64,000 nucleotides of DNA from an uncultured Tropicimonas sp. (GTDB taxonomy: Bacteria; Pseudomonadota; Alphaproteobacteria; Rhodobacterales; Rhodobacteraceae). Positions 40,662 through 49,994 of the stretch are shown one piece after another. The stretch spans positions 310,001 to 374,000 of the forward strand of contig CANMIP010000001.1 of assembly GCA_947497945.1 (NCBI GenBank), given 5' to 3'. The notes beneath the pieces were generated by a model. That model made no database searches. It saw only the letters and a program-made list of their open reading frames with translations, and was not told the DNA's origin. Positions within the stretch are counted from its first letter, which is position 1. Each line of letters opens with the position of its first letter. Both the position numbers and the translations under genes were made by a program.

Positions 40662-41906
40662 TCAGATAACGAACTCGGACAGGGTTTCGTCACTCGTTAT
40701 GTCGTTAAAGACCAGCCCGGCGGAGTCCAGGCGTGCAAAGAGCGCCGTGAAGTTCTCCTTGTGCGTCGTCTCGATTCCCAGAAGAACGGAGCCGAAGTTC
40801 CGGGCCGATTTCTTCATGTACTCAAAGCGGGCAATGTCGTCTTCGGGGCCGAGCAGGTCGAGGAAATCCCTCAACGCGCCGGGGCGCTGCGGAAGGCGCA
40901 AAATGATGTACTTCTTGACGCCCGCGTAGCGCTGGGCTCGCTCTTTCACCTCGGGAAGACGCTCGAAGTCGAAATTTCCGCCCGACGTGACACAGACAAT
41001 GCGCCGGCCGCGAATCTGGTTTGCGAGATCGGGCAGAACATCGACCGACAATGCCCCTGCTGGCTCTAACACGATGCCCTCGACATTCAGCATCTCGATG
41101 ATCGTGGTACAGATCCGGTCTTCCGGAGCGCGCAAGATGTCTGCCGGTGCAACATGGTTCAGTGCTGCAAAGGGCAGATCGCCGATTCGCGCAACGGCGG
41201 CGCCATCAACGAAGGAATTCACCTTGTCCAATGTCACAGGACGGCCGGCCGCCACAGCCGCTGTCAGGCTCGCGCCACCGGCGGGTTCCACGTAGCGCAG
41301 CCCGACCAATGGCGAGACCTCCTCGAGATATCGGGTCACTCCACCGGAAAGCCCGCCCCCGCCGACCGGCAGGATCACCATGTCGGGTGGATCGATCTCA
41401 TCGAGCACCTCGACCATGACAGATGCCTGCCCTTCGATCACATCCGCGTCGTCGAAGGGCGCCAGGAAATGCCCGCCCTCTGCCTCGCACCAGGTCTTGG
41501 CTTCGGCCAGTGTGTCGTCGAAATAGTCGCCCACGAGCCGAATCTCGATGCAGTCTCCGCCGAAGATCCGCGTTTTCTGGATTTTCTGTTGCGGAGTCGT
41601 GACCGGCATGAAGATCACCCCGCGCAGGCCGAAATGCCGGCAGACGAAGGCGACGCCCTGTGCGTGATTGCCCGCCGAGGCGCAGACGAAGAGCGACTGG
41701 TCGGGCCGCTCGGCCAACACCTTTCGCATGGCGTTGAAGGCACCGCGCAGCTTGTAGGAGCGCACGGGTGCGAGGTCTTCGCGCTTGAGATAGATCTCGG
41801 CGCCAAAGCGGTCCGAGAGGTGATCATTGCGCTGAAGAGGGGTCGCGGGGAAGAGGCTTCGCAATTCTTCCGTCGCGGCGCGAGCTTTTTCGGCAAAACT
41901 GGTCAT
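40662..41906 (-). CDS. ilvA: Threonine ammonia-lyase (threonine dehydratase)
   Basis: PLP enzyme converting threonine to 2-oxobutanoate for isoleucine synthesis. The 414-residue protein has the PLP-Lys segment [40 protein letters not shown] and [12 protein letters not shown], then a C-terminal ACT-like regulatory region (about 325-414, [13 protein letters not shown]). One ACT region rather than two fits the shorter IlvA form. ATG 41906 gives the normal start; argG lies divergently, leaving 111 bases for both promoters. Confidence 0.93.
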
Positions 41907-42017
41907 GTTTCGGGCGTTAGCAAAGATGGCGGCCCCATGCCACGGGAATCCGCCTTGCCCGGAGAGGTCTTCCCGTCTACACGGCAGCGTCGAACGCAAG
42001 ATACGAGGAAGCGAGAG

Positions 42018-43241
42018 ATGGCCCAGCCGAAGAAAGTGGTGCTTGCCTATTCCGGGGGTCTCGACACCTCGATCATCCTGAAGTGGTTGCAGGTGGAGTA
42101 TGGTTGCGAAGTCGTGACCTTCACCGCCGACCTGGGACAGGGTGAAGAGCTCGAGCCCGCGCGCAAGAAGGCGGAGATGCTTGGCATCAATCCGGACAAC
42201 ATCTTCATCGAGGATCTGCGCGAGGAATTCGTGCGCGATTTCGTCTTCCCGATGTTCCGAGCCAACGCGCAGTACGAAGGTCTCTACCTGCTCGGCACCG
42301 CCATTGCGCGCCCGCTGATCTCAAAGCGTCTTGTCGAGATCGCCGCCGAGACCGGCGCTGATGCCGTGTCCCATGGCGCGACCGGCAAGGGCAACGACCA
42401 GGTCCGGTTCGAGCTGTCGGCCTATGCGCTGAACCCCGAGATCATCACCATCGCGCCCTGGCGCGAGTGGGACCTCGGATCGCGGACCCGTCTGCTGGAA
42501 TTCGCAGAGCAGCACCAGATCCCGATCGCCAAGGACAAGCGCGGCGAGGCGCCCTTCTCGGTCGATGCGAACCTGCTGCACACCTCCTCCGAGGGCAAGG
42601 TGCTCGAGGATCCGGCCGAGGAAGCGCCCGATTACGTCTACCAGCGGACGGTTCATCCCGAGGATGCGCCGGACACGCCCGAATATGTCGAGATCGAGTT
42701 CGAGCGTGGCGACGCGGTTGGCATCAATGGCGAGCGTCTGAGCCCGGCGACCGTGCTGACGAAGCTCAACGACCTGGGTCGCAAGCACGGTATCGGCCGG
42801 CTTGACCTCGTTGAGGGGCGGTTTGTTGGCATGAAGTCGCGCGGTATCTACGAGACGCCGGGCGGGACGATCCTGCTCGACGCGCACCGCGCCATCGAGT
42901 CGATCACGATGGACCGAGTCGCGATCCATCTGAAAGACGAGCTGATGCCGAAATATGCCGAGATGATCTATAACGGCTTCTGGTTCAGCCCCGAGCGCGA
43001 GATGCTGCAGGCGATGATCGATCACAGCCAGGAGCATGTGACAGGCACGGTCCGGATGAAGCTCTACAAGGGCCTGGCGCGCACCGTTGCCCGCTGGTCC
43101 GAGCATTCGATCTATTCGGAAGAGCAGGTGACCTTCGAAGAGGATATGGGCGCCTATGATCAGTCCGACGCACAGGGTTTCATCCAGCTCCAGGGCCTGC
43201 GTCTGAGGCTTCTCGCCAACCGCGACAAGAAATTCCGCTAG
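42018..43241 (+). CDS. argG: Argininosuccinate synthase
   Basis: ATP-dependent condensation of citrulline and aspartate in arginine synthesis. The 407-residue protein has the N-type PPi-synthetase loop [14 protein letters not shown] at the N-terminus, [15 protein letters not shown] and [18 protein letters not shown], all diagnostic. ATG 42018 is preceded by GAGGAAGCGAG. The coding frame is open far upstream into the antisense of ilvA, but similarity starts at MAQPKKVV. A hairpin follows the stop. Confidence 0.97.
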
Positions 43242-43327: not shown

Positions 43328-44068
43328 TCAGGTCCGGGAAGAACCGGACATGTCGGAGTCGAGCCGTTTTTCTTGCATCGGATCGTCGAACAAGGCCATC
43401 CGAATGCGTTTGTAGCCATAGCCGATATGGACATATTGGATATGCCCGACGGCCACGATGTCGCCTTCCATCAGCGCTGCTTCAAGGTCCAGGAGCTCAT
43501 TGATCAGGGCGTCGATTGCGGCGTCGGCACGGGTATCGACCACACGGTGCCAGGTACTTGCGGCCTGGTAGAAGGCCTGCGTCCAAAAGGACCGCAGCAC
43601 CGAATTCCCGATAAGGTCCCGGGTCAGTCCGTGGAGACGGTAGTTGATCTGCACGTATTGACGGGTCCCGGTTTCTCCGTCCAGCGCCTGCGCCTCCCGA
43701 AGCAGGGCGCGCAGGCGTGTCAGGTGGCTTTCCTCGATGCGAACCGGCGTGCTCGTCCCGATAAGCGTCGCAAGGTGAAGGCGCACATCATAGACTTCCG
43801 CGATCTTCTCCGGTGAAAGCTCGACAACAACCGTGCCCACCCCGTTCAGCGTCTCGACGAGACCGAGATGGCTGATCCGGCTGATGGCGTCGCGCACCGG
43901 TGTACGGCTGACACCGAACTCCCGCGCCAGTTCCGCCTCTTTGAGACGGTCGCCGGGAACATAGTCGAGAAAACAGATTCGCTTGAGAATCAGCTGCTGG
44001 ATGTCTTCGACTCCGGGTTTTCCGTCGCTCTGCGGCCAGTCGATCTCGGGTCTTGTGATGTCGTTCAC
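43328..44068 (-). CDS. GntR family regulator, FCD (FadR) subfamily
   Basis: The 246-residue protein has an N-terminal winged helix (PGDRLKEAELAREFGVSRTPVRDAISRISHLGLVE, about residues 38-75) and an all-helical FCD ligand-binding domain (about 90-235). Regulators of this kind typically repress a neighbouring catabolic operon until the substrate or an intermediate binds. It stands at the head of the cluster to 49994. A perfect palindrome with a TGTATACA core at 44946-44961 is the likely operator. Confidence 0.9.
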   Translation of the reverse strand: MNDITRPEIDWPQSDGKPGVEDIQQLILKRICFLDYVPGDRLKEAELAREFGVSRTPVRDAISRISHLGLVETLNGVGTVVVELSPEKIAEVYDVRLHLATLIGTSTPVRIEESHLTRLRALLREAQALDGETGTRQYVQINYRLHGLTRDLIGNSVLRSFWTQAFYQAASTWHRVVDTRADAAIDALINELLDLEAALMEGDIVAVGHIQYVHIGYGYKRIRMALFDDPMQEKRLDSDMSGSSRT

Positions 44069-44140
44069 GAAAGGTGCTCCTCCTGGCTCGCAGGCCCTTG
44101 TTGCGCCGGGGGTGCATATGAGCCGCGCCGAAGCGCGCGG

Positions 44141-44866
44141 TCAATGCTCCCGGAACAGCCGGCCGAAACCCGTTCTCCTGTCGGTCACCCCTGCGAGACG
44201 AAGCGCGTGCCACATCATTGCCTGGTTGGAACATATCACCGGTTTGCCCAGACGCCGTTCGAGCCCGTCGACAATGTCGAGCGATCGCAGGGCGCCGCAG
44301 CTGATGAACAGTGCGTCATTGTCAGGCCCGTCCACCTCTGCGGCGACGTCGGCAATATGGTCCGGGCGGACCCGGATCATGTCGCTGTCCTTTTCGAGCT
44401 GCAGGCCCTCGATCCGCGGGATCTCGAATCCCGCGCGCTCCAGATAGGCCTTCTCCTGCCTGTTGATCTCGTCGAGATAGGGCGTGACGACAGCGACCCG
44501 CCGGGCGCCAACCGCCTGCAAGGCGGCGATGACGGCAGCGATCAGGCTGGTCGGTTTCGCCCCTGTCGCGCCCTTCGCAAGCTCCGCCGCGACCCGCTCT
44601 TCGCCGATGACGAGGCTGCCCGACGTGCAGCCGTAGCTGATCACGTCGAGGCTTCCATCCGGCAACAGCATCCTCGCCGCTTCGGCCAGCCCGTCCGCGT
44701 GGCGCGACAGGCTCTCCACGGTGATGCTGTCCTCGATCCAGGCGCGCGAGAAATGCACGCCGACGCCATTCGGGCGCAGCGTGAACATGTCGTCCTCGAT
44801 CGTCTGTTCGGTCGCCAGAAGAACAAACCCGATCTTGGCCCTGTGGTGCCGACCTGCGTCAAACAT
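44141..44866 (-). CDS. Maleate isomerase / arylmalonate decarboxylase / Asp-Glu racemase superfamily enzyme
   Basis: A 241-residue protein with the two-lobed fold typified by SYGCTSGS and FISCGALRS. Cys80 and Cys190 occupy the paired catalytic positions; two Cys suggest an isomerase or racemase, as in maleate cis-trans isomerase, rather than a one-Cys decarboxylase. EutA of ectoine-utilisation clusters belongs to the same superfamily. It lies downstream of nothing else on its strand except the regulator gene and faces the TRAP operon across a 160-base regulatory region. The substrate is unknown. Confidence 0.85.
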   Translation of the reverse strand: MFDAGRHHRAKIGFVLLATEQTIEDDMFTLRPNGVGVHFSRAWIEDSITVESLSRHADGLAEAARMLLPDGSLDVISYGCTSGSLVIGEERVAAELAKGATGAKPTSLIAAVIAALQAVGARRVAVVTPYLDEINRQEKAYLERAGFEIPRIEGLQLEKDSDMIRVRPDHIADVAAEVDGPDNDALFISCGALRSLDIVDGLERRLGKPVICSNQAMMWHALRLAGVTDRRTGFGRLFREH

Positions 44867-44907
44867 TGAGCGCCCTCCATCATAGATGCATACAGATTGA
44901 GCAAATT

Positions 44908-44927
44908 ATTGAGGAAAAATCCTCAAT
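44908..44927. promoter_or_regulatory. Perfect inverted repeat in the divergent promoter region
   Basis: ATTGAGGA and TCCTCAAT flank a 4-base A loop. It sits between the isomerase and dctP starts, close to the palindrome at 44946, and could be a second protein-binding site or a leader hairpin. Confidence 0.4.
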
Positions 44928-44945
44928 GATCGACAATATACGCTT

Positions 44946-44961
44946 TAGCTGTATACAGCTA
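44946..44961. promoter_or_regulatory. Probable GntR/FCD operator palindrome
   Basis: TAGCTGTATACAGCTA is a perfect 16-bp palindrome with a TGTATACA core, which fits the T-GT...AC-A pattern bound by FadR/FCD-subfamily GntR proteins. It is 65 bases upstream of the chosen dctP start. A half-match, GCATACA, is at 44889-44895. Confidence 0.6.
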
Positions 44962-45026
44962 TGAAAAATATGCGACGGTCTTCACGTGAGAAACAGAACT
45001 CGAATCATCGAGAGGAGGAAGGACAG

Positions 45027-46028
45027 TTGGAGATCACGTCACGTTTGAGGTCCGCGGCGGCGGGCGCTTGCGTTCTGGCGGCCAGTCTCGGCACGGCGCA
45101 GGCCGAGGAAATAATCCTTGGCCATGTCATGGACAGCCAGCACATCTTTCATGCCGTCTCCGAGCAGTTCTCGGCCCGGCTCGAAGAGCTTTCCGGCGGT
45201 GACCTGACCGTCGATTACCATCCGGGCGGCGATCTCGGTGACTGGACCTCGATTGTCGAGCAGGTCTCGCAGGGCGCCATCCAGATGACCATGAGCTGGA
45301 ATTATTCTGAGCTCGACCCGCGCTGGGATGTCTCCGTGCTTGGCTATGTCGCCAGCGACTGGGAAACGGGCAAGGCCGTCTATGGTCCCGGCTCGGTGAT
45401 GAATGCGGTCTATGAGGGGATCATGAACGATCTCGGCATGGTCCTGCTTGGCACCATCCCGACCGATTTCACCGGCTATGTCGTGCGCAAGGGCGTCGAG
45501 GTTCCGACGCATTTCCCGGACGACGCCAAGGGCTTCAAGATGCGCGTGCCCGGCATGCCGATGGCGATCGAGCGCTACAAGGCGACCGGGTTCGCGCCGG
45601 TGCCGATGGCCTTCTCCGAGGTGCATACAGCGCTGCAGACCGGCGCTATCGACGGCCGGGCGTACTCGCCGCCTTCCGAAGTGCTGCTCTTCAAGGACGT
45701 GGTCGGGGCCTATGTCTTCACCCGCGAGAATTTCGAGCACACGTTCTGGACCGCCAACAAGCGCTGGTTTGACGGGCTGAGCGAAGACCAGCAGGGCTGG
45801 ATCCGCCAGGCCGCCGACGAGGCCGTGATCTGGGCCTGGGAGAATGCCGAGGCCGAGAGTCCGAAATGGTTCACCCAGATGGAAGAGGCCGGCATCGAGG
45901 TGGTCGAACTGACGCCTGAGCAGATGGACGGCTATCGTGGCCTCGTGACCGAGACCGAGTATCCCTACATGGAGAAGATCATCGGTGCCGAGGTGATGGC
46001 ACAGATCAAGGCCGCGTCCGGCCAATAG
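45027..46028 (+). CDS. dctP: TRAP transporter solute-binding protein (DctP family)
   Basis: Periplasmic receptor of a tripartite ATP-independent transporter. The 333-residue precursor has a signal peptide (SAAAGACVLAASLGTAQAEE) and the DctP fold: FSARLEELSGGDLTVDYHPGG, GDWTSIVEQVSQGAIQMTMS, FKMRVPGMPM with the conserved carboxylate-binding Arg, and GAIDGRAYSPPSEV. I chose TTG 45027, preceded by the strong GAGGAGGAAGG; ATG 44961 would overlap the operator palindrome and prepend 22 charged residues before the signal. The ligand is unknown, probably a carboxylate. Confidence 0.9.
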   Translation: MEITSRLRSAAAGACVLAASLGTAQAEEIILGHVMDSQHIFHAVSEQFSARLEELSGGDLTVDYHPGGDLGDWTSIVEQVSQGAIQMTMSWNYSELDPRWDVSVLGYVASDWETGKAVYGPGSVMNAVYEGIMNDLGMVLLGTIPTDFTGYVVRKGVEVPTHFPDDAKGFKMRVPGMPMAIERYKATGFAPVPMAFSEVHTALQTGAIDGRAYSPPSEVLLFKDVVGAYVFTRENFEHTFWTANKRWFDGLSEDQQGWIRQAADEAVIWAWENAEAESPKWFTQMEEAGIEVVELTPEQMDGYRGLVTETEYPYMEKIIGAEVMAQIKAASGQ

Positions 46029-46044
46029 CTCCTCCAACCCCCTG

Positions 46045-46075
46045 GCCATGCCCCTCGCCCGCCGACGGGCATGGC
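46045..46075 (+). repeat. Stem-loop between dctP and dctQ
   Basis: GCCATGCCC (46045-46053) and GGGCATGGC (46067-46075) form a perfect 9-bp stem with a 13-base loop, 16 bases after the dctP stop. In transporter operons such structures protect the 3' end of the binding-protein mRNA. Confidence 0.5.
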
Positions 46076-46094
46076 GCTGACACGAGGCGCGCCC

Positions 46095-46700
46095 ATGAAC
46101 AAGGACCTCCTTCATACCGACAGTCTCGACGATGTGATGCCGCCGCAGCCGATCCAGCCGGCCGGGGGCGACCTGTCGGACCCGGCCTATCGTGGGCTCG
46201 ACGGTTTCTACCGGTTCGAAGCCCGGCTGGCGCTGGCGATGCGGGTCATCCTGTTCTGTGCAATCCTCGCGCTCGGCCTGTTGATGGCGGCGCAGGTCTT
46301 CATGCGCTACGTGATCTCCTCGCCCTTTCTCGGCATCGAGGAGTTGGCGCCGATGCTGGCGCTCTGGGTCTATTTCATCGGCATGGCCTATTGCACCCGG
46401 GAGCGCGACCATATCGAGGGCGGCGTGCTGACGCTGCTCACGCATAATCGCGACATCCTGCTGTCCGTGCGCCTCTTCGGCACCCTGGTCTGCCTCGTGA
46501 CGGTGGCGGTCTTCGCCTGGTACGCATGGGATTTCGCGGCCTACAACCTCTCGCTCAACCGCAAGAGCACCTATATGCGGCTGCCGAAATATATATGGGA
46601 TTTCAGTATGATCGCGGGCTTTGCCCTGATGATCTTCTATCTCGCGCTGCAACTCCTGCTCGAAGCGCGCGCGCTTCTCACCGGCCGCGGAAACGACTGA
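46095..46700 (+). CDS. dctQ: TRAP transporter small membrane subunit (DctQ family)
   Basis: A 201-residue protein with a hydrophilic N-terminus (about 40 residues) and four helices (VILFCAILALGLLMAAQVFM; MLALWVYFIGMAYC; LFGTLVCLVTVAVFAWYAW; MIAGFALMIFYLALQLLLEA), the DctQ layout. GIEELAPMLALWVYFIG is the family motif region. ATG 46095 follows GAGGCG. It is 3 bases before dctM, so the subunits are coupled. Confidence 0.87.
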   Translation: MNKDLLHTDSLDDVMPPQPIQPAGGDLSDPAYRGLDGFYRFEARLALAMRVILFCAILALGLLMAAQVFMRYVISSPFLGIEELAPMLALWVYFIGMAYCTRERDHIEGGVLTLLTHNRDILLSVRLFGTLVCLVTVAVFAWYAWDFAAYNLSLNRKSTYMRLPKYIWDFSMIAGFALMIFYLALQLLLEARALLTGRGND

Positions 46701-46703
46701 TCC

Positions 46704-47999
46704 ATGGCAACCTTCCTGATCGCCTTTCTCGCCATCATCCTGCTGCTGCTGATCGAGGTGCCGGTGGGCTTTGCCTTCGGCGCCGGCGCGCTCGCCTATG
46801 GGGTGATGTCCGGCACCAATATCTCCTTTCATGCCGGCTATGGCTACTCGCAGGTCAGCGCCTTTTCGCTGCTCGCCATCCCGCTCTTCATCCTGTCGGG
46901 GACGCTGATGGGGGCGTCCGGCATCTCCGAGCGGCTGCTGAACTTCGTCAACAGTTTCGTCGGCCGCACCAAGGGCGGGTTGGGCGCAGTCACCGTGCTG
47001 ACCTGCGCGCTGTTCGGAGCGATCTCGGGCAGCGCCTCGGCGGCCATCGCCGCGATCGGCAAGATCATGGTGCCGCGCATGATCGACGAAGGCTATCCGC
47101 CGGGCCATGCCACAGCGCTCGTCGCTGTCTCCTCGGTGCTGGCGCTGATGATCCCGCCCTCGATCCCGATGATCGTCTTTGCCATCGCGATCCGCGAATC
47201 CGTCGCCGCCTGCTTTCTCGCCACGATGGGGCCGGGCGTGATGCTGGCGCTGATCTATTGCGGGCTGAACTTCTTCTTCCTGCGCAACAACACCACGATC
47301 ACCGTCGCCCCGCCGCTCACCTTCAAGGAGACCACCGTCGAAGTGGCGCAGACCGGAAAGAAGGCCTCCCTTGCCATCATCATGCCGGTGATTGTGCTCG
47401 GCGGCATCTATAGCGGCATCGCCACGCCGACCGAAGCCGGCGCGGTTGCCCTGGTCTACACACTGGCCGTCGCGCTGATCATCTACCGCTCGCTCCCCAT
47501 GCAGGCGCTCTTCAACTCCACGGTCGAGGCCGCGCGACTGACCGGCGCCATCCTGATGGTGCTCTTCTTCCTCTTCGTGATGAGCCGCGGCATGGTGCTG
47601 GCAAAGATTCCGACCCAGTTCGCCGACATGCTGTTGCAGGTCTCAGAGAACCGCATCGTCATCCTGCTGCTGGTCAACCTCCTGCTGCTGATGATGGGAA
47701 TGATCATCGACGATGTCTCCGGCGGGGTGCTCGCCGCGATCATCCTGCTGCCGGTCACCCAGAAGATCGGCCTCGACCCGATCCACTTCGCCGCCATCGT
47801 CGGCACCAATCTCGGTCTGGGCAACATCTCGCCCCCCTGCGCGCCGCTGCTCTACATGGCGGGCGGTGTCACCCGGCAGCCGCTTTCCGTCTATGTCGGC
47901 CCGACGATGAAATTCCTGCTGCTGGGGCATCTTCCGATGGTGCTGATCGTCACCTTCGTGCCCCCGGTGGCGCTTTTCCTTCCCGGCCTGCTGTACTGA
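46704..47999 (+). CDS. dctM: TRAP transporter large permease (DctM family)
   Basis: A 431-residue permease with about 12 helices, matching DctM/TRAP large subunit: IPLFILSGTLMGASGISERLL, AISGSASAAIAAIGKIMVPRM, IPPSIPMIVFAIA and LGLGNISPPCAPLLYMAGG are recognisable blocks. With dctP and dctQ it makes a sodium-driven importer of an organic, probably carboxylated solute. The M24-family gene begins 45 bases later. Confidence 0.93.
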   Translation: MATFLIAFLAIILLLLIEVPVGFAFGAGALAYGVMSGTNISFHAGYGYSQVSAFSLLAIPLFILSGTLMGASGISERLLNFVNSFVGRTKGGLGAVTVLTCALFGAISGSASAAIAAIGKIMVPRMIDEGYPPGHATALVAVSSVLALMIPPSIPMIVFAIAIRESVAACFLATMGPGVMLALIYCGLNFFFLRNNTTITVAPPLTFKETTVEVAQTGKKASLAIIMPVIVLGGIYSGIATPTEAGAVALVYTLAVALIIYRSLPMQALFNSTVEAARLTGAILMVLFFLFVMSRGMVLAKIPTQFADMLLQVSENRIVILLLVNLLLLMMGMIIDDVSGGVLAAIILLPVTQKIGLDPIHFAAIVGTNLGLGNISPPCAPLLYMAGGVTRQPLSVYVGPTMKFLLLGHLPMVLIVTFVPPVALFLPGLLY

Positions 48000-48044
48000 T
48001 CCGGCGGCCAGTCCCAATACTCAATTTGCAACGGGAGACCCGAT

Positions 48045-49202
48045 ATGCTCGAAGAAGCCCGCAAACGGACAACCCTCCTCCAGGACCGCATGCGCGCGGA
48101 CGGGATCGCCAAGGCTGTCTTCACCGACGAAAGCTCCATCGCCTATCTCGCAGGGTTCTGGGGCTATCTCGGCATCGAGTTCGGCCGCCCGACCATGCTG
48201 GTGGTGGATGCCGACGAGGCGCCGATTGTCATCACGCCGCTGATGGAATCGGAAATGGTGGCAGAGATGACCTGGGTCGAGCGGGTCGAGACCTGGGAAG
48301 ACATCGGCCAGCGCAGTTGGGGGCGTGCCCTCGCTGCAGCGCTTGGCGACACACCGTCCGAGATCTGGATCGAGCGCAGCTCCATTCCGGCGATTGTCCG
48401 CAACCATCTCGACGACACCTATCCGGGCGTGCCGCTCAAGGACATCTCCCCGGTGCTTGGTGCGATGCGCATGATCAAGACGCCCTTCGAGATCGGGGTG
48501 ATGAAACAGGCCGGCGAGATTGCCGGCGCGATGATGGCCGCTGCCCATGACAGCCTCGCCGAGGGGGCGCGGGAGTTCGAATCCGCCCTCGCGGTGATCG
48601 ATGCAGGCTCGCGCAAGGCGGCCTCCTTCCTGACCGATCGCGGCTGGGAGAGATTCGTCTCGCCGATGATCCACAATCTCCAGATCATGCAGAGCGGAAA
48701 GGACGCCTCGATGGTGCATCGCCGGTCCGGCGTGAAGGCCTATGAGCGCTTCGACCCGGTCTATTTCTGCTTCTGCAACATGGCGCAGTTCAAGCAATAC
48801 AAGCTTGGCTTCGACCGCATGTTCCATATCGGGGACGTGACCGACGCCGCGCGCGACGTGCAGGAGGCCGCTATCGAAGCCCAGCAGGCCGCGATTGCGG
48901 CGATGCGCCCGGGCGTGCTGGCGGAAGAGGTCGCGGCGGCGGCCAACGAGGTCTATCGCCGACGCGGCTACGAGACCGGCTATCGCACCGGCCGCTCCAT
49001 CGGTGTGGCCTACCTGGAGGCGCCGGAGCTGAAGGCGGGCGACAGGACGGTGCTGCAGCCGGGCATGACATTCGCTGTCGATGGCGGGATCTCGGTCGAT
49101 GGAGTGACCGCCGGGCGGATCGGGGATTCCGTTGTCGTGACCGAGACCGGCACCGATTACATCACCCATTATCCCCGCGAAATCCTGTTGAGCCGGGCCT
49201 GA
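48045..49202 (+). CDS. M24-fold hydrolase lacking metal ligands (creatinase/ectoine-hydrolase-like)
   Basis: The 385-residue protein has an N-terminal creatinase domain (about 1-150) and a C-terminal pita-bread fold (about 155-380), as in M24B peptidases, creatinase and ectoine hydrolase. Aligning the C-terminal motifs by eye, all five metal-ligand positions are changed: Asp to Cys242, Asp to Gly255, His to Arg317 (YRTGRSIG), Glu to Asp346 and Glu to Gly360 (RIGD). His225, matching a conserved substrate-contacting His, remains. This points to a metal-free C-N hydrolase rather than an aminopeptidase. It is cotranscribed with the TRAP genes. Confidence 0.85.
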   Translation: MLEEARKRTTLLQDRMRADGIAKAVFTDESSIAYLAGFWGYLGIEFGRPTMLVVDADEAPIVITPLMESEMVAEMTWVERVETWEDIGQRSWGRALAAALGDTPSEIWIERSSIPAIVRNHLDDTYPGVPLKDISPVLGAMRMIKTPFEIGVMKQAGEIAGAMMAAAHDSLAEGAREFESALAVIDAGSRKAASFLTDRGWERFVSPMIHNLQIMQSGKDASMVHRRSGVKAYERFDPVYFCFCNMAQFKQYKLGFDRMFHIGDVTDAARDVQEAAIEAQQAAIAAMRPGVLAEEVAAAANEVYRRRGYETGYRTGRSIGVAYLEAPELKAGDRTVLQPGMTFAVDGGISVDGVTAGRIGDSVVVTETGTDYITHYPREILLSRA

Positions 49203-49205
49203 GCG

Positions 49206-49994
49206 ATGGGACTTGCCCTGACCCTCGCCGTGGCCCAGAGCCCCGCCGAGCTCGACGGCCCGCAGGCGCGCCTCGACTGGCTGAGCGACTGCCTCGACGG
49301 GTTGGCGGGACGGCATGTCGACCTGCTTGTCCTGCCCGAGCTTTTCCTGACCGGCTACAATATCGGCGACGCTGTCAGGGATCGCGGCGAGCCGGTCGAC
49401 GGTCCGGCGTTCGACGCCGTGTCGCGCCTCGCCCGGCAGCATGGCACTGCGATCCTGTATGGGTTTGCGGAACTGGCGGAGGGCCGATTGTTCAATGCGG
49501 CCAGCTGCGTCGGCCGGGATGGTCAGCTTCTTTCGACCCATCGCAAGCTGGTGCTCCCGCCGGGGTTCGAGAGCGATCATTTCGCCTCGGGCACGAGTTT
49601 CACCTGTTTCGATGTCGAGGGAATCTCGGTCGCAACGTTGATCTGTTACGATGCCGAGTTCCCGGAGGCCCTTCGCGCCGTGGCCGTGCAAGGCGCGGAG
49701 CTTGTGCTGGTGCCGACCGCCCTCGGCGCGCAATGGGGCGTGGTTGCCGAGCGCATGATCCCGACGCGCGCCTTCGAAAACGGTGTCTATCTTTGCTACG
49801 CGAACTCTGCCGGTCAGGAGAATGGCATGGCGTTTTTCGGCGGGAGTTGCATCGTCGGTCCGGACGGCACCGACCTAGCCCGGGCCGGCACTAAGCCGGA
49901 GGTACTGACCGCGCGGTTCGACAGCAGGAATGTCGCCACCGCCCAGGCCCGCCTTCCTTACCTCATCGATCGGAAGAAGCTCCCTTCGGCGTGA
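49206..49994 (+). CDS. Carbon-nitrogen hydrolase (nitrilase superfamily)
   Basis: A 262-residue amidase-type enzyme with the catalytic triad Glu45 (LPELFLTG), Lys114 (HRKLVLPPGFE) and Cys147 (LICYDAEFPEA). The length and motifs fit aliphatic amidase or carbamoyl-hydrolase branches more than true nitrilases. It starts 3 bases after the M24 gene, so the two probably act in sequence: ring or C-N bond opening, then amide or carbamoyl hydrolysis. The substrate is not known. A strong hairpin lies at 50065-50096. Confidence 0.85.
   Translation: MGLALTLAVAQSPAELDGPQARLDWLSDCLDGLAGRHVDLLVLPELFLTGYNIGDAVRDRGEPVDGPAFDAVSRLARQHGTAILYGFAELAEGRLFNAASCVGRDGQLLSTHRKLVLPPGFESDHFASGTSFTCFDVEGISVATLICYDAEFPEALRAVAVQGAELVLVPTALGAQWGVVAERMIPTRAFENGVYLCYANSAGQENGMAFFGGSCIVGPDGTDLARAGTKPEVLTARFDSRNVATAQARLPYLIDRKKLPSA

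Follow-up and report, generated by a model that had tools for sequence, protein, structure and literature searches.

A widespread cassette of a metal-free M24 hydrolase and an amidase in an uncultured Tropicimonas

A group of seven genes at positions 43,328–49,994 of a 64,000-nucleotide stretch of DNA from an uncultured Tropicimonas sp. (the window; positions 310,001 to 374,000 of contig CANMIP010000001.1, assembly GCA_947497945.1) is a real and widespread variant of the type of cassette built around creatinase or ectoine hydrolase. It pairs a hydrolase of the M24 (pita-bread) family, which has lost its metal ligands, with an amidase, and it is a member of neither the creatinase nor the ectoine-hydrolase system, because the tests of membership by curated scores and by clade failed. 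The seven genes probably serve the import and breakdown of a small nitrogen compound. No description of the cassette was found in the literature searched, which was covered by titles and the beginnings of abstracts and without most subscription journals.

The conserved unit and its distribution

An initial annotation of this DNA had grouped here a GntR/FCD regulator, a maleate-isomerase-like enzyme, a TRAP importer, an M24 protein and a nitrilase-type amidase. All seven open reading frames (ORFs) are present where it had placed them (43,328–49,994), and Pfam and NCBIfam bear out the regulator, importer, M24 protein and amidase. A search across one genome per species yielded 221 related stretches. 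The best 80 of these 221 (73–90% identity) come mostly from Rhodobacterales, with others from Roseibium/Labrenzia, Hoeflea and Granulosicoccus. A set of 147 loci (80 named, 10 plasmid and 57 others) was reduced to 132 once identical copies, and loci in which no M24 match was clear, had been removed. They comprise 100 loci of the clade of the window's own protein (clade A), 8 of clade C (about 50% identity), carried by rhizobia and Paraburkholderia on large plasmids or symbiosis plasmids, and 24 of a third branch, clade D (about 40%). The gene counts that follow are lower bounds, as contig ends cut many loci (mean 15.4 kb) and identity thresholds were applied.

Of the 100 distinct clade-A loci, 93 have an amidase close to the M24 gene, so that the grouping is not due to chance. 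The amidase is of the nitrilase type (NIT) in 80 loci and of the AtzE type in 13; no locus has both and seven have neither. That two unrelated amidases exclude each other is the strongest hint to function that we have: because of it, an amide-cleaving step is probably needed, an amide-type bond being cut before or after the M24 step. The other genes are less constant, with a GntR gene in 51 of the loci, a racemase-like gene in 25 and the same TRAP permease in 16. The conserved unit is therefore M24 plus amidase, often with a GntR operator, and with TRAP importer and racemase as optional additions.

In the window the M24 gene (48,045–49,202, + strand) is followed by the amidase gene (49,206–49,994, + strand; PF00795, 158 bits). 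They share a strand in 92 of the 94 loci that have both, with a gap of −30 to 60 bp in 90 (near-duplicates included in this count and the next). The catalytic residues of the NIT amidase, E45, K114 and C147 with a second glutamate, E151, are strongly conserved, K, C and the second E in 93/93 rows and the first E in 92/93, with one gap. The AtzE-type protein belongs to PF01425, and the one member scanned scored below the AtzE cut-offs (348 vs 461 and 319 vs 426 bits). It is often preceded by a protein of about 70 residues, which has no Pfam match and is called AtzG-like by its size and position only.

In samples of 295 genomes from the family and 385 from the class, a clade-A M24 gene (≥69% identity) was found in 25 and 11, respectively, with the Tropicimonas genome itself counted in both. 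Since none of eight congeners has the M24 gene, the cassette is an accessory set and probably mobile, and it looks like an insertion beside argG.

Several relatives have neighbourhoods of their own. On plasmids of legume symbionts of Rhizobium, Paraburkholderia and Mesorhizobium (L134, L135, L136 and L141), GntR, racemase, M24 and in most cases amidase genes occur with an ABC transporter, which hints at a plant-derived substrate. The copy of S. meliloti AK57 (L137) has its GntR and amidase genes annotated in pieces. In clade D (for example L139 and L167) an M20-type deacylase, one of which was scanned, is nearby in 12 of 24 loci, at times with a PLP enzyme like diaminopropionate ammonia-lyase; this neighbourhood resembles the logic of ectoine breakdown with a shorter diamino acid. 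In three Roseovarius loci (L059:10686–14274, L062 and L082) the cassette is flanked by molybdenum-hydroxylase-type genes, named by eye, and by a different TRAP-type permease.

The M24 protein compared with creatinase and ectoine hydrolase

The M24 protein, recognised by its M24 and Creatinase_N domains, was aligned in a set of 87 rows picked from 114 non-redundant sequences, 49 of them from clades A, C and D. In this MAFFT alignment the prolidase metal ligands D, D, H, E and E correspond to C242, G255, R317, D346 and G360, as expected from the initial description of the protein as free of metal ligands. All five ligands are lost in 49/49 rows of the three clades, with the same letters C/G/R/D/G, and the catalytic histidine, His225, is retained in all 49. 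The cysteine at the lost first ligand is Cys242 by MAFFT and Cys244 by an ungapped reading from the C-terminal side; both are invariant in 40/40 rows.

A quick tree joins clades A, C and D in one group (SH-aLRT 99) that is separate from 12 rows of EutD/DoeA, the ectoine hydrolases, and likewise from a second, DoeA-like M24 protein of Roseibium and of a Mesorhizobium plasmid. Long branches are flagged in this tree, no order among the groups is claimed from it, and several of its EutD rows score below the EutD cut-off. The protein of the window scores 89 bits against the EutD model TIGR02993 (cut-off 613) and 62 bits against creatinase (1chm), with which it shares 24% identity. Judged by its sequence, the M24 protein is not EutD. 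Creatinase itself is ruled out by the low 1chm score and by co-occurrence with creatinase homologues.

By fold rank, by a sequence motif and by two acidic residues, creatinase is a better match than EutD. The AlphaFold model (mean pLDDT 86) is nearest, among 999 chains aligned, to three creatinases (Z 39.7, 39.6 and 39.5; rmsd 2.3 over 370 residues), followed by DoeA (Z 37.4, rmsd 3.0) and then by prolidases (Z about 36). The FGRP stretch of creatinase is complete in 32/32 clade-A rows, and Phe46 and Arg48 are present in 49/49 rows of clades A, C and D, with the glycine in 46 and the proline in 47. EutD has V at the arginine position in 12/12 rows. Asp257 and Asp346 occupy the positions of creatinase Glu262 and Glu358 in 49/49 rows, where EutD has S/C and M. 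We take Phe62, Arg64, His232, Glu262 and Glu358 of creatinase to be the residues that bind or act on creatine; their letters match the 1chm chain when shifted by one. DoeA presumably uses a Glu at the metal-ligand position.

The second, DoeA-like M24 protein (L018:9202–10353, L024:9202–10353, L043:9212–10363 and L133:16811–17968) has Glu at the first ligand position in 4/4 rows. In Roseibium its gene lies directly downstream of the clade-A M24 gene, and in M. amorphae the two are some 7 kb apart; the protein perhaps represents a further uncharacterised class of metal-free M24 protein.

The Tropicimonas genome already has a creatinase (contig C33; 519 bits to 1chm) and a homologue of EutD (G000:C29:23870–27076, L144; 582 bits, just below the cut-off of 613), and the M24 gene of the window is therefore part of a further M24 cassette. 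Next to the EutD homologue are a GntR gene and a gene resembling that of acetylornithine deacetylase.

Genes for sarcosine oxidase (soxA or soxB) occur in 6 of 100 loci in clade A, 2 of 8 in clade C and 5 of 24 in clade D, against a rough background, calculated by hand from two to three soxA genes per ~4 Mb genome, of about 1 in 100 loci. In L018, L024 and L043 they are on the same strand as, and downstream of, the M24 and amidase genes. On the plasmids of Mesorhizobium amorphae and Rhizobium sp. CCGE532 they are accompanied by purU, by a beta-eliminating-lyase gene (threonine-aldolase-like) and by a threonine/serine-dehydratase gene. Because sarcosine-oxidase genes adjoin the cassette in this minority of loci, an N-methyl amino acid is suggested as the product, unproven for the window itself.

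Isomerase-like protein, regulator and importer

The protein encoded at 44,141–44,866 (− strand) belongs to the Asp/Glu-racemase superfamily (PF17645, 120 bits), as the term "maleate-isomerase-like" implied, though its best matches are EutA and arylmalonate decarboxylase (AMDase) rather than maleate isomerase. Its score against the EutA model TIGR02990 is 203 bits, below the cut-off of 318. Cys80 and Cys190 are invariant in 24/24 rows, and both cysteines are present in 39/39 rows other than that of AMDase, which has Gly at the first catalytic position and Cys at the second. An AMDase is ruled out by Cys80. Because the decarboxylase has Gly at this position, the sequence makes a role as racemase or isomerase the better guess for the two-cysteine protein. 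In a quick tree the 25 racemases of M24 loci, labelled by at least 44% identity to the queries, are split from 10 of 11 EutA hits by a branch of SH-aLRT 99, the remaining hit (L129) and the AMDase row falling with the 25. Only one of the EutA hits (L120) is above the EutA cut-off, so that the tree gives a separate group without a sharp EutA border. The racemases beside M24 genes of clades A, C and D thus form a group of their own. EutA, hydantoin racemases and AMDases are placed in one superfamily, and TRAP genes near amd are noted, in PMC4996985.

The GntR/FCD regulator (43,328–44,068, − strand; PF00392 and PF07729 above cut-off, no NCBIfam equivalog above cut-off), of which relatives occur in 51/100 distinct loci, has 246 residues and is probably a local repressor. 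A perfect 14-bp palindrome, AGCTGTATACAGCT, at 44,947–44,960 between the divergent transcripts is its predicted operator. A palindrome with at most three mismatches is found in 48 of 51 distinct divergent regions and in 0.7% of mononucleotide shuffles, a contrast that is overstated; a fairer control is given by 55 regions, each taken as the 250 bp ahead of the first gene, where no linked GntR or racemase gene was found, and only one of these has it. Two or more TGTATACA-like octamers occur in 33 of the 51 divergent regions (0.4% of shuffles). The sequence data suggest that this palindrome ties the regulator to the cassette. A second, weaker operator-like site, AGATGCATACAGAT, lies at 44,884–44,897 with three mismatches; there are two more three-mismatch sites elsewhere in the window, where 0.69 are expected in all.

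The palindrome at 44,947–44,960 is the sole exact site in the Tropicimonas genome. Since no other exact or one-mismatch copy was found there, the regulon is probably local, and a wider GntR regulon was dropped from consideration. Three further places have two mismatches, one (C29:26328) within the GntR ORF beside the EutD homologue and two with altered cores; the pattern read backwards gives more such places than the pattern itself (21 vs 4 per strand), which is the level of chance. The GntR ORF near the EutD homologue contains a TGTATACA site.

DctP (44,961–46,028; PF03480, 159 bits), DctQ (46,071–46,700; PF04290, 87.5 bits) and DctM (46,704–47,999; PF06808, 299 bits, and TIGR00786 above cut-off), all on the + strand, together identify the importer as a TRAP transporter, and the TRAP proteins are syntenic in other genera with 52–93% identity. 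Read by eye, the likely start of DctP is TTG 45,027, which has a Shine–Dalgarno-like aggaggaagg ahead of it, and not ATG 44,961; this start probably puts the operator upstream of the coding sequence. The best PDB matches of DctP are tightly grouped (73–81 bits over the top nine rows) and include, but not in the lead, proteins that we take to be ectoine binders. A ligand assignment from these matches was dropped, as nothing follows from scores so close.

None of the seven proteins reaches the cut-off of a function-specific (equivalog) NCBIfam model, and no enzyme model is reached; the only NCBIfam models that are reached, TRAP_S1 and TIGR00786, are those of transporter subfamilies. The flanks appear unrelated, with IlvA (40,662–41,999) and ArgG (41,154–43,241) preceding the cassette and, beyond its other end, a symporter of the AgcS family and an ABC transporter of the sugar type. 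The PLP enzyme IlvA scores 573 bits against its own model (cut-off 421) and below both EutB models (184 and 153 bits; cut-offs 413). As the initial annotation had it, EutB, EutC and EutE are missing: no model for them is above cut-off among the 8 ORFs of the cluster and 9 flanking ORFs. The regulator has no match to an aminotransferase domain, and there was no EnuR model in the family tables, the rest of the window not being searched for EnuR.

Proposed function and comparison with known systems

We consider the cassette to be an inducible import-and-hydrolyse system, with a probability for the explanation as a whole of about one half. DctPQM would import a small organic anion. The M24 protein would then cut, without metal and in the fashion of creatinase, a C–N bond next to an amidine, guanidine, ureido or cyclic-amide carbon. 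Among the residues observed in it, His225 may serve as acid/base, Arg48 and neighbouring arginines may hold a carboxylate and Asp257 and Asp346 a nitrogen-rich group, with the invariant Cys242 at the lost first ligand. The NIT amidase, or the AtzE-type amidase elsewhere, is observed as the partner and would strip the remaining amide or carbamoyl group, in this presumed order. The two-cysteine racemase relative could interconvert enantiomers, so that a chiral substrate or intermediate could enter in either form, and the GntR/FCD protein would bind the palindrome seen between the divergent transcripts until released by substrate or intermediate. In some relatives the product would go on to N-demethylation of the sarcosine-oxidase type, and for this reason the most likely class of substrate is that of chiral N-methylated amino acids with an amidino, guanidino or ureido group, or of their cyclic forms. 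A bolder version, possible though doubtful, makes the M24 clade a new class of catalyst among the pita-bread hydrolases: the cysteine at the first-ligand site would be the nucleophile that attacks an amidine, guanidine or lactam carbon, and the enzyme would open a pathway, so far unrecognised, for a nitrogen compound, chiral and N-methylated, met by roseobacters in the sea and by legume symbionts in the plant.

Several observations weigh against the proposed function. No measured activity was found for the M24 clade, and its model is weak near the active site: pLDDT is 54–67 in blocks 201–230 and 241–250, the blocks with His225 and Cys242 averaging 62 and 67, and falls below 50 at residues 206–212. 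Within FGRP, G47 and P49 vary (46/49 and 47/49), and Arg-Pro without FG is also common in other M24 rows (12 and 13 of 15). No sarcosine-oxidase gene is seen in 94 of the 100 clade-A loci, three of the six positives are from Roseibium/Labrenzia, and on the M. amorphae plasmid these genes follow the second M24 gene, roughly 10 kb from that of clade A. Across genomes soxA is uninformative, being present in 288 of 295 family genomes (two candidates scored per genome), and its genome-wide presence was dropped as evidence. Racemase and TRAP genes are unseen in most loci, so that chirality and the route of uptake are guesses for the minimal cassette, and three less similar clade-D racemases (L138:819, L161:3386 and L167:11689) group with the EutA hits. 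The regions that supplied the operator pattern are also those in which it was counted, and they are related in sequence.

Among other explanations, a rebuilt hydantoin-type system would need the same three activities: the M24 protein would open a 5-substituted hydantoin or dihydropyrimidine ring, the isomerase would be a hydantoin racemase and the amidase an N-carbamoyl-amino-acid hydrolase. The isomerase is in the right superfamily, going by PMC4996985, and has both catalytic cysteines. The amidase does match N-carbamoyl-amino-acid hydrolases, though not among its best hits. Known hydantoinases, however, are metal-dependent amidohydrolases, the racemase is seen in only 25 of 100 clade-A loci, and acids at the creatinase Glu positions would fit a cation better than an imide, which makes this system unlikely.

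Less likely again is an alternative creatine or creatinine pathway, with the M24 protein acting on creatine itself and the amidase on N-carbamoylsarcosine. The creatinase-like fold and motif, the sarcosine-oxidase neighbours of some loci and the membership of N-carbamoyl amidases in the CN-hydrolase superfamily would all suit it. However, 23 of 25 clade-A carriers already have a homologue close to the creatinase of the Tropicimonas genome (199 of 295 family genomes overall), and that creatinase scores 519 bits to 1chm against 62 for the M24 protein of the cassette. Creatine is also achiral and would leave the racemase idle, although the racemase is optional.

The frequencies of TRAP (16/100) and racemase genes (25/100), and the many loci with GntR, M24 and NIT alone, would also be accounted for if these three were the real unit and the TRAP and racemase genes of the window unrelated passengers. 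We rate this lower still, as against it the GntR operator lies between the racemase and dctP, the TRAP proteins are syntenic in other genera, and the racemases beside clade A, C and D M24 genes form their own group.

A variant ectoine or hydroxyectoine pathway, with the M24 protein a divergent EutD and the isomerase EutA, has the same kinds of genes in its favour, EutD/DoeA and EutA being among the best equivalog matches of the two proteins. PMC13188858 describes an EutD phylogeny and ectoine clusters with TRAP or ABC transporters, so that TRAP importers serve ectoine too. The initial annotation had taken ectoine use as its nearest model for a parallel pathway, to be given up if the M24 and isomerase proteins fell inside the EutD and EutA clades. 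Both stand apart from the EutD rows and EutA hits in the quick trees, although only L120 is above the EutA cut-off and several EutD rows are below theirs. The scores are far below cut-off (89 vs 613 and 203 vs 318), the active-site letters differ (C242/D257/D346 vs E/S-C/M) and an EutD homologue, next to a deacetylase, is encoded separately in the genome. We therefore reject the ectoine variant on scores, trees and residues, as very improbable. The idea of a catabolic cassette of its own is retained, with no description of it found; the choice of ectoine as nearest model is less well supported, given the creatinase-like fold, FGRP motif and acidic residues and the sarcosine-oxidase neighbours. 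Least credible of all is peptide scavenging by an Xaa-Pro peptidase and a general amidase: prolidases and aminopeptidase P proteins are the top phmmer matches of the M24 protein, but prolidases of the pita-bread fold require metal, an Xaa-Pro peptidase is ruled out by the loss of all five ligands in 49/49 rows, and creatinases rank above prolidases in fold.

If the proposed import-and-hydrolyse function is right, the M24 protein stands for one more branch of M24 hydrolases that do without metal, next to creatinase and ectoine hydrolase, and has an invariant Cys where those have Asn or Glu. Marine and plant-associated bacteria would gain a route into a nitrogen pool that is hidden from annotation, none of the three enzymes of the cassette receiving a specific name from NCBIfam. 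Thanks to the operator and the mutually exclusive amidases, induction and knockout offer a way to search for the substrate.

The known systems set the cassette in context. With creatinase (1chm) the M24 protein shares the pita-bread fold (Z 39.7), the lack of a standard metal site, the FGRP motif, the catalytic His and acids at the two positions that hold the guanidinium, as well as sarcosine-oxidase genes near some relatives. It differs in its low identity (24%), in having Asp for Glu262 and Glu358, Cys for Asn at the first ligand and Arg and Gly for His at two more, and in being paired with an amidase and co-occurring with a creatinase homologue. EutD/DoeA (6twk), likewise an M24 enzyme free of metal, has a partner like EutA and in many cases a TRAP importer, whereas the M24 protein of the cassette is in a separate clade, has Cys/Asp/Asp for Glu/Ser-Cys/Met and has no eutBCE model above cut-off beside it. 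The isomerase is of one superfamily with EutA and AMDase, its best-scoring matches, but is apart from the EutA hits and has two cysteines in place of the Gly and Cys of AMDase. The amidase shares the CN-hydrolase family and E-K-C triad with 3hkx, presumably from Nesterenkonia, and with N-carbamoyl amidases, at 118 bits only and with no NCBIfam equivalog. The AtzE amidase of the cyanuric acid pathway has a counterpart in the AtzE-type protein that replaces the nitrilase in 13/100 loci, though the member scanned is below the AtzE cut-offs and cyanuric-acid genes were not searched for. Thus the cassette is not an ectoine pathway and probably not one of ordinary creatine breakdown; by analogy, it may work like creatinase, or like ectoine hydrolase followed by a deacylase.

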